A stretch of 64,000 nucleotides of DNA from NCBI RefSeq assembly GCF_030127105.1, contig NZ_CP126161.1:3100001-3164000 (forward strand), written 5' to 3'. The stretch is from Haloarcula pelagica. Lineage in GTDB: Archaea > Halobacteriota > Halobacteria > Halobacteriales > Haloarculaceae. Under the pieces are notes generated by a model. The model was not told the origin of the DNA and ran no database searches. It saw only the letters and a program-made list of their open reading frames with translations. This document shows, piece after piece, positions 10,386-54,656 of the stretch (position 1 is the stretch's first letter; every line of letters starts with the position of its first letter). Position numbers and translations under genes: made by a program.

Positions 10386-11165
10386 TTACAGTTGGACTGC
10401 GTCTTTCAGTTCGGTCGCGCGGTCGCGGATCGTCTCGACACCGCGGACGACCAGGTCGTCCGCCGTGAGCGAGCCGTCCGTCTCGACGTGGAACACGAAC
10501 GCGTTCTCGACATCGGTCACCTCGACTTCCTTGCCGGGGTACCGCTTCGAGAGGTCGTTGTCGAACGTCTCGGTCGCGACCAGTTCGCCGTTCGTGGCGT
10601 CGCCGACGGCGTGTTCGGCCGCCTGTTCCTCGATGACGCCACGCAGGATGTTCGGTTCGTCGTCCTCGAACTCGCTTTTGTCCCCGACGACCTCGACCTG
10701 CTGGAGGTGTCGGTAGCCGACGGCGACGCCGCCCTGGTGTTTGGCGTGCTCTTTCCCGGTGTCGAGGACGGCGTCGGCCTCGACTTCGAGGCGCTGGCCG
10801 TCCTTCAGATCGATGATCGGGATGTTGTCGTCGGCGGGTTCGACCAGCGGGTCGCTGGACACGAGGTCGCCCGAGTAGGCGGTCCCGGGTCCATCGACGG
10901 CGACCGATAGCGTGACCTCCTCGCCGCGTTCGAAGTCGTCGATGTCCGTGGTCAACGGGATCAGCCCGAGCCGGAGCCCGATCTGCTCGTTGAACATCAC
11001 GCTCGTGTTCTCGATCACCCGGACGGTGTCGATGCTGAACGTGGGAACGTCGGCGACCATCGCACGGCGGATGCCGTTGGCAAAGGCCGGCGTGATACCG
11101 CGGACCAGGAATCGTGATTCCCGTTCACCGCGGTCGACGAACTCAACCTCGTAATCCTGTGTCAT
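10386..11165 (-). CDS. rpoD: DNA-directed RNA polymerase subunit D (Rpb3-like)
   Basis: This 259-residue protein starts [20 protein letters not shown] and shows the alpha/Rpb3 motif [25 protein letters not shown] and the dimerisation end [15 protein letters not shown]. RpoD pairs with RpoL and RpoN to start RNA polymerase assembly. The whole protein contains no cysteine, so the Fe-S cluster domain of some archaeal RpoD proteins cannot be metallated here; the corresponding insert remains but is cysteine-free. It follows rps11 in the conserved S13-S4-S11-RpoD order. It is not a bacterial-type sigma factor despite the shared symbol. Confidence 0.96.
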
Positions 11166-11168
11166 TGG

Positions 11169-11558
11169 TTAGAACCCGGAGTTCTTGGGCGCGCGCGTGC
11201 CGTCGTGTGGCGTCGGCGTGACATCCTCGATGCGGCCGATCTCCAGCCCGGCGCGAGCCAGGGCACGGATCGTCGCCTGTGCGCCCGGCCCGGGGGAGGT
11301 CTGCTGGTTCCCACCGGGGCCACGGACGCGGACGTGGACCTCCTCGACACCGCGGTCGAGGGCCTTCTCTGCGACGACTTCCGCCATCTGCATCGCGGCG
11401 TAGGGCGAAGCCTCGTCGCGGTTCTGCTTGACGACCGTCCCGCCGGAACTCTTCGCGAGCGTCTCCGCGCCGGTCTGGTCGGTGATCGTGATGATCGTGT
11501 TGTTGAACGATGCGTGGACGTGGGCGATACCCGTGATGCCGTCTTTCTCTTCGCTCAT
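11169..11558 (-). CDS. rps11: 30S ribosomal protein S11
   Basis: Small-subunit protein uS11, 129 residues. It contains [21 protein letters not shown], then the [14 protein letters not shown] and [11 protein letters not shown] segments, and ends [18 protein letters not shown], all typical of S11, which binds the 16S rRNA platform. Its ATG overlaps the rps4 stop; rpoD follows 3 bases later. Confidence 0.97.
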
Positions 11559-50884: not shown

Positions 50885-51469
50885 ATGAGTCAGGGACCGC
50901 CCACCGAGGACGAGGACGAGATCGGAACGCTGTTCGATGAACTGGAGGAACTCGAAGCGCTTGTCGACAGTCCAGCCGAACGTGAACAGGTCAGGGACGC
51001 GATGCGGGCCGCCACAGAAGTTCAGGACAGCGATCCGGTCGTCTTCGGGCGTGTCGTCTGGGGGTTCGACCGCAGCGACCTCGCGGAGGCGACGCTTGGC
51101 TCGCTGTTGTTCGGTATCCCGATGGCGGTCGAGGGTGGGACCATCGACGCCGGCCGGCACATCGCTCGGCACCCGCTGTTTCTCCTCGGGACGCTCGTGG
51201 CCGCCATCGCGATGGTCATCGGTATCCTCTACGTCGCCGATATCCAGGACGTGCGCGTCGCGAACGCCATCTTCGGGTTCGTCCCACGCCGGCTGGTCGG
51301 GGTGACCGGGACCGCCTTCTTCGTCTCGGTCACACTGCTTACGTCCTGGGGGATGGTCGAGTGGTCGACGGAGTCGGCGGCCCTCCTCGAATCGCTCTCG
51401 ATCTGTACCGTCGCGTTCGTTCCCATGTCGATCGGCGCCGCACTGGGGGATATCCTCCCGGGGAGCTGA
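50885..51469 (+). CDS. DUF2391-type integral membrane protein
   Basis: This 194-residue protein has an acidic soluble N-terminus of about 60 residues, then helices around LGSLLFGIPMAVEGG, PLFLLGTLVAAIAMVIGILYV, GVTGTAFFVSVTLLTSWGM and SICTVAFVPMSIGAALGDIL. The ARHPLFLLGTLVA and FGFVPRRLVGV segments look like DUF2391. It is divergent from tfb and monocistronic. No function is known. Confidence 0.72.
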   Translation: MSQGPPTEDEDEIGTLFDELEELEALVDSPAEREQVRDAMRAATEVQDSDPVVFGRVVWGFDRSDLAEATLGSLLFGIPMAVEGGTIDAGRHIARHPLFLLGTLVAAIAMVIGILYVADIQDVRVANAIFGFVPRRLVGVTGTAFFVSVTLLTSWGMVEWSTESAALLESLSICTVAFVPMSIGAALGDILPGS

Positions 51470-52413: not shown

Positions 52414-52770
52414 ATGACCATCTTCAAAGAAAAGGTCAGCGAGGAGTACCTGACGACCGCCGAGACGAAAGAGATCCTCGAAGGGCTGGAGATGGAGCGG
52501 GCCGCCGACGAGGACCGCGAGATGCGCTACGAACTCAAGCGCGCAATCGAGCACGTCAACCGGTTCACGCTGCTCGATCCGGCGGAGTCCCGCGAGTTCG
52601 TCGACCAGCTTCAGGAACTGGAGAAAGTCGACGAGGCCACCGCGTACAAGATCGCCAACCTCCGCCCGCTCGACCGGGACGAACTCCGTGCCGTGTTCGC
52701 ACAGGAACGGTACTCGCTGTCGGGCGACGAACTCGACGAGATTCTCGGCATCGTCAGCCAGTACGCCTGA
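52414..52770 (+). CDS. rpoF: DNA-directed RNA polymerase subunit F (Rpb4)
   Basis: This 118-residue subunit forms the stalk of RNA polymerase with RpoE. It starts MTIFKEKVSEEYLTTAETKE and shows the Rpb4 helical core: ELKRAIEHVNRFTLLDPAES, then ELEKVDEATAYKIANLRP and a final DELDEILGIVSQYA. The true ATG is four bases after rpl21e; the longer upstream frame is a shadow of rpl21e. Confidence 0.95.
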   Translation: MTIFKEKVSEEYLTTAETKEILEGLEMERAADEDREMRYELKRAIEHVNRFTLLDPAESREFVDQLQELEKVDEATAYKIANLRPLDRDELRAVFAQERYSLSGDELDEILGIVSQYA

Positions 52771-52788
52771 GCGCGGTCGACAGCCCCG

Positions 52789-52793
52789 TTTTT
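52789..52793 (+). terminator. Possible oligo-T terminator after rpoF
   Basis: TTTTT in otherwise GC-rich sequence lies about 20 bases after the rpoF stop. Short T-runs without a hairpin are the usual archaeal termination signal, so transcription of the L21e-RpoF unit may end here. Confidence 0.4.
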
Positions 52794-52869
52794 CCGTCCG
52801 CTCGTCGCTGCGGCCTGTCGGCGACGGCGCCGACGCCCGGCGCGGTCGGGATAGTCCGTATCCCTCGCC

Positions 52870-52876
52870 ATTAAGT
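52870..52876 (+). promoter_or_regulatory. Possible TATA box of the DUF655 gene
   Basis: ATTAAGT is centred about 27 bases before the ATG at 52900, a fitting distance for a leaderless message, though the sequence is a weak match to consensus. Confidence 0.4.
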
Positions 52877-52899
52877 GTGCTCTGGTCGTACCGCAGTCT

Positions 52900-53478
52900 A
52901 TGAGTGACACGGAGAGCGACGACGGTGCAACTATGACGGGTGTCGTCATCGATGTCCTCCCCCACGGGCGGGCCTCGGACGACCGTCCCCAGCACCAGAA
53001 AGATCCGCTCGCGTTCGTCCTCGGGATCGAGGAGTTCTACATCTACGAACTCGTCTTGGACGGTGACTCGGATGTCTCGATCGGTGACCGGGTCGATCTG
53101 ACTGCCTTCGGCCGTATCAACGAGGTCGACTTCGAGGACCTCCCGAGCGGGGCCCGCTCGGAACTGGAGTACGTGGTCGAGGAGGTCGTCGAGGACAACG
53201 AGCGGCGGTTCGTCGACTTCTACAACGACGCCCAGCCGATCACCCTCCGCCTCCACCAGTTGAACCTCCTGCCGGGAATCGGGAAGAAACTGCGCAACTC
53301 GATCCTCGACGAGCGCAAACGCAAGCCCTTCGAGAGCTTCGAGGACCTCCAGGAGCGTGTCAGCGGCCTCCACAATCCCGAGGAAGTCCTCGTCGAGCGG
53401 ATCCTGGAGGAACTGCGTGAGGACGACCTGAAGTATCGGACGTTCGTGCGCCGGTCGGAGCAAGGCGAGGGCGAGTGA
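52900..53478 (+). CDS. DUF655 protein (putative RNA-binding, OB fold plus HhH)
   Basis: This 192-residue protein has an N-terminal OB-like part (GVVIDVLPHGRA, GIEEFYIYELVLDGD, IGDRVDLTAFGRIN) and a helix-hairpin-helix in NLLPGIGKKLRNSILDER. It is the archaeal DUF655 family, found beside ksgA and rpoF and presumed to act on RNA or in rRNA processing. Its last five codons and stop fall inside the first copy of a 60-base tandem repeat, so the C-terminal EQGEGE may be set by the repeat. Confidence 0.88.
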   Translation: MSDTESDDGATMTGVVIDVLPHGRASDDRPQHQKDPLAFVLGIEEFYIYELVLDGDSDVSIGDRVDLTAFGRINEVDFEDLPSGARSELEYVVEEVVEDNERRFVDFYNDAQPITLRLHQLNLLPGIGKKLRNSILDERKRKPFESFEDLQERVSGLHNPEEVLVERILEELREDDLKYRTFVRRSEQGEGE

Positions 53479-53735
53479 AGCGAGGCCTCGAAGCGGAACG
53501 GAGAGAGCGGAGCCGTGGAGCAAGGCGAGGGCGAGTGAAGCGAGGCCTCGAAGCGGAACGGAGAGAGCGGAGCCGTGGAGCAAGGCGAGGGCGAGTGAAG
53601 CGAGGCCTCGAAGCGGAACGGAGAGAGCGGAGCCGTGGAGCAAGGCGAGGGCGAGTGAAGCGAGGCCTCGAAGCGGAACGGAGAGAGCGGAGCCGTGGAG
53701 CAAGGCGAGGGCGAGTGAAGCGAGGCCTCGAAGCG
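53457..53735 (+). repeat. Perfect 60-bp tandem repeat (about 4.65 copies)
   Basis: Four identical 60-base units (53461-53520, 53521-53580, 53581-53640, 53641-53700) are followed by a 35-base partial unit to 53735, and a shared GGAG extends the first copy to 53457. No mismatch is seen among full copies. Each unit holds GGCGAGGGCGAGTGAAGCG and AGGCCTCGAAGCGG. The first unit contains the DUF655 stop, so the array probably grew from the end of that gene. Because 60 is divisible by three, open frames run through it on both strands; these are not genes. The array separates DUF655 from ksgA. Confidence 0.98.
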
Positions 53736-53765
53736 AGACGGGTCGGCCGACAGCGCGAGTAGGCG

Positions 53766-53770
53766 ACTTT
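53766..53770 (+). terminator. Possible oligo-T terminator before ksgA
   Basis: TTTTT lies about 30 bases after the repeat array and 29-33 bases before the ksgA ATG. It could end the DUF655 transcript or, in view of its position, act as a poor TATA element for ksgA. I cannot separate the two. Confidence 0.3.
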
Positions 53771-53798
53771 TTCAATCGCGGCCCGTCTACGGGGGGTA

Positions 53799-54656
53799 AT
53801 GACCGACACAGCGACCGGTGGGCGTGATCCCGACGCGCTCGTCCGCCGGGCCGGCAAACGCGCCGACACCCGCCAGGACCAGCACTTCCTGGTCGACGAC
53901 CGCGTGCTCGACCGGATTCCCGACTACGCGACCGAGACAGGGATGGACTGCTCGCACGTCCTCGAAGTCGGTGCGGGCCCCGGCGCCCTGACCGATCGGT
54001 TGCTGACCGCGGCCGACCGCGTGACCGCCATCGAGCGCGACCCCGACTTCGCGGCCCACCTCCGTCAGGAGTTCGCCGACGAGATCGGCACCGATCGACT
54101 GACCGTCGTCGAGGGGGACGCCCTGGAGGTCGACCTTCCCGACTACACCGCGAGTATCTCGAACCTCCCGTACGGCGCGTCCTCGGAGATCGCCTTCCGG
54201 CTCCTCCCCCGACAGCGGCCGACAGTACTGATGTTCCAACAGGAGTTCGCCGAGCGGATGGCCGCCGAGCCCGGGACCGACGACTACGGCCGGCTCTCGG
54301 TCACCGCCGGCCACTACGCCGAAGTCGAGGTCGTCGAGACGGTGCCGAAGGAGGCGTTCGACCCGCAACCTCGCGTGACGAGCGCGCTCGTACGGACGAC
54401 GCCACGTGAGCCCGACTACTCGGTGCCTGACGACGACTTCTTCATGGACTTCCTGCGGGCGGTGTTCACACAGCGCCGGAAGACGATGCGCAACGCCGTC
54501 CGGAACACGGTCCACATCTCGGGCCTGGGCGACGCGGACGCCGTCGTCGAGGCGGCCGACGAGGACCGCATGAGCGCCCGTGCGGGCAACCTGACCCCGG
54601 CGGAGTTCGCCGCGCTGGCGACGCTGGCCCACGAGGTCGGCGAGCCGGAGGCGTAG
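53799..54656 (+). CDS. ksgA: 16S rRNA dimethyladenosine transferase (KsgA/Dim1)
   Basis: This 285-residue SAM-dependent enzyme dimethylates two adjacent adenines near the 3' end of 16S rRNA. It has DQHFLVDDRVLDRIPDYA, the SAM loop LEVGAGPGALTDRLL, VEGDALEVDLPDY, and the catalytic NLPYGASSEIAF (an N-L-P-Y motif). The C-terminal helical domain follows. It opens an operon with the next gene, whose ATG is two bases after its stop. Confidence 0.96.
   Translation: MTDTATGGRDPDALVRRAGKRADTRQDQHFLVDDRVLDRIPDYATETGMDCSHVLEVGAGPGALTDRLLTAADRVTAIERDPDFAAHLRQEFADEIGTDRLTVVEGDALEVDLPDYTASISNLPYGASSEIAFRLLPRQRPTVLMFQQEFAERMAAEPGTDDYGRLSVTAGHYAEVEVVETVPKEAFDPQPRVTSALVRTTPREPDYSVPDDDFFMDFLRAVFTQRRKTMRNAVRNTVHISGLGDADAVVEAADEDRMSARAGNLTPAEFAALATLAHEVGEPEA

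Follow-up and report, generated by a model that had tools for sequence, protein, structure and literature searches.

How does a protein-coding gene come to end inside a perfect tandem repeat, and is such a repeat peculiar to its locus? The question arises at the 3′ end of a DUF655 gene in Haloarcula pelagica, within the 64,000-nucleotide stretch of DNA analysed here (the window, whose forward-strand positions are used throughout). Using Tandem Repeats Finder, we identified at 53457–53735 an array with a period of 60 bp, 4.7 copies, 100% matches and no indels, which scored 558; the runner-up tandem repeat of the 64-kb window scored only 85. Direct comparison resolved the array into four full, mutually identical units and a fifth that matches over 39 bases (4.65 copies), as an earlier note made from the sequence had described it. 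Such perfection is far beyond chance. DUF655 (52900–53478) finishes with GAG CAA GGC GAG GGC GAG TGA within copy 1, and the proposal that the first copy supplies its last codons and stop is supported. Outside the array, the 4.46-Mb genome (four contigs, estimated 99.96% complete) contains no near-identical copy of the unit; after the five array places, the best match had E = 0.43. The features of the locus are given below, where R1 denotes a covariance model whose E-values are rough and G000 the H. pelagica genome.

50885..51469, plus strand: upstream gene, an empty site here, with TGA and then an 84-bp spacer without an R1 match (orthologues in genomes G002 and G010 have an element right after TAG).
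52900..53478, plus strand: DUF655 gene (PF04919, 207.5 bits).
53457..53735, plus strand: perfect tandem array, 4.65 units of 60 bp (Tandem Repeats Finder and direct comparison).
53457..53516, plus strand: unit 1, covering the last six codons and TGA stop of DUF655 (R1 match G000:C1:3153458-3153517, 64.3 bits).
53466..53490, plus strand: hairpin A of unit 1 (CGAGG...CCTCG), with the TGA stop in the loop and one G.G mismatch here (sequence; pairs from 13 units of the DUF655–ksgA locus in eight genomes).
53498..53516, plus strand: hairpin B of unit 1 (ACGG...CCGT), its core out of register (decayed) here (sequence, with relatives compared).
53517..53576, plus strand: unit 2 (repeat finding, R1 and direct comparison, as for the next three).
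53577..53636, plus strand: unit 3.
53637..53696, plus strand: unit 4.
53697..53735, plus strand: partial unit 5 (39 bases).
53768..53775, plus strand: T-rich tract before ksgA, putatively promoter-like or terminator-like (by eye, 30 spacers; no hit when bacterial-type consensus was scanned for).
53799..54656, plus strand: ksgA, rRNA adenine dimethylase (PF00398, 171 bits).

We compared this spacer with those of relatives, using a collection of one genome per species and gene calls from a crude codon-usage finder written for the analysis. DUF655 was present in 140 of the 145 genomes searched, and the comparison covered 30 DUF655 loci, all from one genus and oriented beforehand. The distance from DUF655 to ksgA ranged from about 37 to 320 bp, the window's own being the longest, in agreement with the earlier suggestion that this distance can change. 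In the nearest relative (G014, with a DUF655 95% identical), the spacer holds three diverged units and a degenerate fourth; further diverged units were found in G029, G002, G001, G026, G010 and G007, and partly in G008. Unit listing by script on 14 of the 30 loci gave two or more anchors in nine, one in three and none in two, while the remaining 16 spacers were assessed by eye. Units within a single array share 91.7–96.7% identity in G014, 85.7% in G029 and 63–68% in G001 and G002, and the H. pelagica units are 77–88% identical to those of G014. Since its own units are identical while those of relatives have diverged, the window's array is the youngest or the best homogenised, which bears out the view that it is young or kept uniform. 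Taken by itself, a young array at the end of DUF655 is an ordinary event.

All 30 spacers also carry, by eye, a CTTTT(T)C tract downstream of the units and shortly upstream of the ksgA ATG, which may serve as a promoter or terminator of ksgA; with this tract kept throughout, the idea that copy number affects ksgA is doubtful. In the window, a T5 run at 53768 starts 33 bases past the array's last base. A scan of 52700–54000 for the bacterial-type terminator consensus only (stem-loop plus T run, loops of 3–8) returned no intrinsic terminator, and we rejected a terminator of that type at the array. Two other spacers stood out. Locus L086 (Halophilic archaeon SHRA6) has an unrelated 28-bp tandem repeat at 2612–2787 (6.2 copies, 94% matches), and at L056 the two genes lie 1475 bp apart, with a large insertion that appears by eye to include an IS605/TnpB-type gene on the reverse strand.

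Alignment of the units revealed that each consists of two successive hairpins with complementary arms, which vary widely between units yet still pair. The share of paired cells, over 16 pairs scored in 13 units of eight genomes, was 95.1% compared with 83.9% in shuffles that ignore the relatedness of the units, and 27 cells had changed on both sides compared with 10.2; neither value was reached in any of 500 shuffles. Coarser, weaker measures gave smaller differences, with 8 pairs showing both-side change against 5.1 shuffled (6/500 shuffles reached this value) and 17 further pair types against 13.8 (11/500). When the 13-unit alignment was slid, pairing fell to 34–48%. G.U and A.C mismatches numbered three and one, too few for this asymmetry to test RNA selection, and the measure was dropped. 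In the window's own unit, hairpin A has a G.G mismatch and the core of hairpin B is displaced, and the unit folds no better than its shuffles (DNA z 0.14; 341-nt RNA z −0.42), whereas an element of G002 described below folds better than shuffles (DNA z −3.1). As the hairpins of the own unit have decayed, copy number here may be neutral, and a strong function of the copy number at this locus is probably absent.

Many of the hairpins are closed by the core GA-NC-GNA-GN-GA. Among 493 cores with complementary inner pairs, drawn from loci enriched for the family, perfect stems of at least 4 bp were present in 208, compared with 13 expected when flanks were shuffled, and the loop-closing pair was C-G in 195 of these 208. 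The core GAGCGNAGCGA had arms of at least 4 bp in 9 of 24 cases in the H. pelagica genome and 10 of 22 in G002 (19/46 in total), using 400-kb samples of which that of G002 was evenly spaced and the other partly placed with core matches in view; shuffling predicts about 1 and 0.75, respectively, and the pattern read backwards gave 0/23. Armed cores were intergenic in 54 of 55 cases from three genomes, while 36 of the 69 cores with arms of 0–1 bp lay in predicted genes. In a de novo survey of hairpins with an 11-nt loop and arms of 7 bp or longer, the core was absent from the 25 loops listed for H. pelagica and appeared 3 + 1 times among the 25 listed for G002.

A second hairpin class has the same GAGCGNAGCGA core nested in longer arms ending GGATTTGAACC...GGTTCAAATCC, for example at L199, L191, L161 and L203 of the H. 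pelagica genome, L185 of G002 and L249 of G010; these arm ends resemble what we take to be tRNA T-arm sequence. In the G002 sample (L169–L188), five hairpins with perfect arms of 7 bp or longer share the loop ATCGGAGACAA, which may mark another repeat family. The C-GNA-G loop of the core is also found in GNA-loop mini-hairpins such as d(GCGAAGC), described as extraordinarily stable and nuclease resistant as DNA (PMC4686876). In the available portion of that source these are a short oligonucleotide motif, while here the core sits inside longer genomic hairpins, flanked by GA/GA. By analogy, such stability hints at a DNA-level role for the repeat.

Searches with R1 revealed that the unit belongs to a dispersed family. 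The H. pelagica genome contains at least 28 matches at E ≤ 1 and at least 19 at E ≤ 0.01, five of the latter being the array, with further tandem sites such as C1:1973046 and 1973108. At E ≤ 0.01, all 32 genomes of the genus, including this one, have matches (at least 3–118 each), as do, across the order, at least 95 of the 117 that were sampled, representing at least 40 of 48 genera; per-genome counts are lower bounds, as the best 150 candidates were scored per genus genome and the best 46 per order genome. A reversed-sequence control model of the same units (R2), for which we know of no genome that it does match, found nothing in H. pelagica, G002 and G010, where R1 found at least 19, 93 and 118 matches. 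Four of 19 non-array matches inspected in H. pelagica fall inside predicted genes, and some such matches are probably false. The sole Rfam match in the window was a tRNA, with none above gathering over the array, and across eight element loci the single match at E ≤ 1 was a guanidine-II riboswitch away from the element and below gathering (L265, 2344–2387, near C1:1939310 of the own genome; 26.1 bits against 32, E 0.15). A known RNA family was accordingly rejected for the array and for the elements of these eight loci. We saw no earlier description of the repeat in the open PMC literature, which leaves most subscription journals outside its scope, and this double-hairpin family, widespread in Halobacteriales, is apparently undescribed so far. 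Given the dispersed copies and the older, diverged ones at the same place in relatives, the earlier proposal that the array simply grew from the DUF655 end is not supported as it stands.

We next examined where family members lie relative to genes. In G002 (Haloarcula rara), at least 93 R1 units form 67 clusters, 47 of them after a same-strand gene, 11 after an opposite-strand gene and 9 inside predicted genes. The stop of the upstream gene was overlapped in 34 of the 67, and in 20 cases the unit started exactly 6 nt before the gene end, which places the stop at model positions 4–6. The overlapped stop was TAG in 27 of the 34 clusters, compared with 125 of 420 (30%) sampled G002 genes (binomial p = 3e-9), and the units on which R1 was trained have no TAG at that position. 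A preceding G was not clearly favoured (16/27 anchored clusters against 61/125 other TAG genes), and GTAG is doubtful as the tag. Where a stop was followed by CGAG in gene samples of H. pelagica and G002, it was TAG in ten cases and TGA or TAA in none. In H. pelagica, TAG heads five of the 19 non-array elements inspected, at 1973046, 1990237, 1274017 (minus strand), 425811 and 1874336. TAG is also frequent in internal units, so the element may in some cases bring the stop rather than choose it.

In a second mode of anchoring, TGA lies inside hairpin A and the element contributes the protein tail, as in DUF655 (GEGE). The same arrangement occurs in several other genera in a protein with a shared C-terminus and tails such as GEAE, which was rhodanese-like by Pfam in both cases examined. 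At L458 (G117), two adjoining paralogues with a rhodanese-like C-terminus have the element-type tails GEAE and GEAD, then hairpin-like sequence. The earlier note had remarked that later copies of the array share the stop of the first; the TGA-containing 60-mer of copy 1 does recur in them, but a built-in stop is a family trait of anchored first units. Members of the family are thus often anchored to stop codons, a claim made because of the element clusters and the sets of orthologues, not the genome-wide count of hairpins at +1. Stems of at least 8 bp exactly at +1 followed 4/125 TAG, 2/222 TGA and 1/73 TAA stops in the G002 sample and 0/474 stops in the H. pelagica sample, and we rejected a genome-wide excess, weak in the one and nil in the other.

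Orthologous loci record turnover of the elements. The S-adenosylhomocysteine hydrolase gene (AHCY) is present in 31 of the 32 genus genomes, and at all 30 loci compared its stop is TAG. In 26 of these 30, base +1 opens a perfect stem of 6 bp or longer, the H. pelagica copy being among the other four, and the 30 loci have 15 different first hexamers. The location of the element is therefore kept across the genus while its hairpins are replaced. For the gene at 50885–51469, both neighbours were readable in 20 of 111 loci, and the spacer measured 70–92 bp in 19 loci from 16 distinct genomes, three of which contribute two loci each; none of the 16 has an R1 match there. In G002, about 103 bp of additional sequence separate the TAG of this gene from the retained spacer. 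The array of G010 starts at the same point and is longer, and its first hairpin differs from that of G002 whereas the last is similar; both spacers match R1. This is one filled/empty site for the element, at one locus in two related species, with the element directly after TAG and, as judged by eye like its ends, no apparent target duplication. Among 20 further loci picked for their strongest or tandem R1 matches, four contain perfect 61–62-bp arrays of 3.0–3.8 copies (G034, G069, G025 and G058); expansions like the window's therefore recur.

Together, these results make it probable that one member of a dispersed haloarchaeal repeat family, REP-like and anchored to stops, has recently expanded in tandem to give the array. 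The family unit, of about 62 nt, comprises hairpin A, with arms free to vary, followed by hairpin B, often with the GNA-loop core, and conserved linkers. Arrays are mostly intergenic and run in the same direction as the upstream gene, with the first unit fixed to its stop in about half of the clusters examined, either with TAG at the foot of hairpin A or with TGA in its loop; where the stop lies inside the unit, the element provides the last codons. An element can appear directly after a TAG, and units are gained, lost and homogenised within arrays; the expansion probably came about when identical units recombined unequally or slipped during replication. We suggest that spread is REP-like and at the DNA level, via single-strand hairpins, with TAG as target or landing point. 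Several observations weigh against parts of this account: no mobilising enzyme was found, and counts of Y1_Tnp genes do not track those of elements; half of the G002 clusters have no overlap with a stop, and predicted genes contain some of the weak matches; the filled/empty comparison concerns one gene in two species that are related; TAG is frequent in internal units, and the stop may hence come from the element; folding of the H. pelagica unit is no stronger than that of its shuffles; and the mismatch counts are too few. The genus-wide position at AHCY would fit a function equally well.

A serious rival, to which we give somewhat less than an even chance, is indeed that the hairpin arrays function in mRNA as 3′-UTR elements starting from the stop codon, as a shield of the 3′ end or in termination of transcription or translation. 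Structure rather than sequence would then be selected, so that arms drift with compensation, as the covarying arms and their replacement at a kept AHCY position would suggest. The sense orientation (in G002, a same-strand gene precedes 47 of the 58 clusters that lie outside predicted genes) and the start of the stem at or adjoining +1 in TAG-anchored cases point the same way, although TAG-directed insertion would be expected to yield that orientation too. Hairpins have been mapped near transcript ends of haloarchaeal genes before, in Haloferax volcanii, where 503 termination sites have hairpins upstream of them and termination by the one hairpin put to the test was 59% (PMC7237163). The authors clustered structures found at termination sites; a repeat family, anchoring at stops and tandem arrays do not figure in the accessible part of the paper. 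Against an RNA role, many congeners have a short DUF655–ksgA spacer without visible units, G.U mismatches do not clearly exceed A.C, and the array here expanded despite decayed hairpins.

It is unlikely, in our judgement, that the elements are true REP or IS200/IS605 derivatives, like the PATEs of Haloquadratum, with a Y1 HUH transposase recognising the hairpin and inserting it 3′ of TAG. There are resemblances: a hairpin whose foot carries a short tag recalls the 5′ GT[AG]G found at that place in canonical REPs (PMC6006769), and the insertion immediately after TAG, by eye without target duplication, recalls IS605-type insertion, which uses a 4–6-bp target (PMC3119063). The enzyme does not follow the elements, however. 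Y1_Tnp genes occur in 21 of the 32 genus genomes, their number is uncorrelated with that of elements (rho −0.05, p 0.78), and the 11 genomes without them have at least 14–61 R1 matches. The 30 Y1_Tnp loci show no REPtron-like flanking and a single weak R1 match (E 0.016), and no cognate RAYT/TnpA_REP gene flanked by repeats was found in the genus genomes. With counts uncorrelated and Y1 genes not flanked by repeats in the genus genomes, a Y1- or RAYT-driven REP was set aside as improbable. Two equal-scoring Y1_Tnp copies on contig C3 of H. pelagica (11149–11510 and 226429–226790) each gave two partial matches in short frames and are therefore probably broken.

Like bacterial REP/BIME elements with their RAYT (TnpA_REP), the family consists of high-copy short palindromes in intergenic DNA, with clusters, a variable tandem number and a foot tag. 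It differs in that the tag is the gene's own TAG, or a TGA in the loop, with no clear preference for GTAG over other TAG, and in its variable arms, archaeal hosts and lack of an associated Y1 gene found in the genus. Its units are direct repeats: clusters run head-to-tail as double hairpins, the inverted pairs of BIMEs or REPINs were not seen within them, and clusters of opposite strands share a locus in few cases (L352, L353, L356, L359 and L362). Haloquadratum PATEs are the nearest described haloarchaeal kind found, being likewise transposase-free and palindromic and without terminal inverted repeats (PMC3119063, in part). The same source reports that a strain in which every TnpA gene is a pseudogene nevertheless has strain-specific IS605-type insertions, a situation similar to that of the present family. 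PATEs, as presented there, have near-terminal palindromes between defined ends, while the units here are 62-nt tandem double hairpins, often stop-anchored, for which we found no transposon link; no core between palindromes, the PATE or IS605-type layout, was seen in the elements examined.

A plain neutral minisatellite, in which slippage duplicated the DUF655 end in this lineage and nothing more, comes near the earlier reading and is improbable as the full explanation. The head-to-tail perfect units do make the array a minisatellite or VNTR, its hairpins are decayed, and an unrelated repeat fills the same spacer in L086, but diverged units stand at the same place in congeners, their arms covary and the family is dispersed at other stops of the same genome. 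Covariation, R1 counts and the reversed control contradict an isolated minisatellite as the whole account, which we rejected, although for the last step, the expansion, it may be true. That the copy number is an assembly artefact is very improbable: perfect repeats are easily miscounted, and the perfect 3–4-copy arrays in other genomes might suffer the same fault, but the genome is nearly complete by estimate and G014 and other species have their own multi-unit arrays in the same spacer.

Preferring a recent expansion within a stop-anchored family, we tentatively put forward a broader view, which may well prove wrong: that this is a hitherto undescribed class of archaeal nucleic-acid elements with the host stop codon as a part of their own, which would land 3′ of TAG or overlap TGA, keep interchangeable pairing arms, spread and re-expand in tandem across Halobacteriales, and, with no Y1 transposase resident, rewrite the ends of genes and their 3′ UTRs. 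The orthologous array sets at AHCY, the rhodanese-like gene and DUF655 let the turnover of units be followed. The interest of the locus rests on the family across Halobacteriales, which deserves follow-up as a lone young array would not. If the broader view is true, the stop codons of many haloarchaeal genes would be part of a structured repeat at the gene end, with effects on the annotation and study of 3′ UTRs, C-terminal tails and transcript ends, and haloarchaea would offer an archaeal equivalent of REP elements, one that follows a clear rule of anchoring: TAG, then a hairpin.
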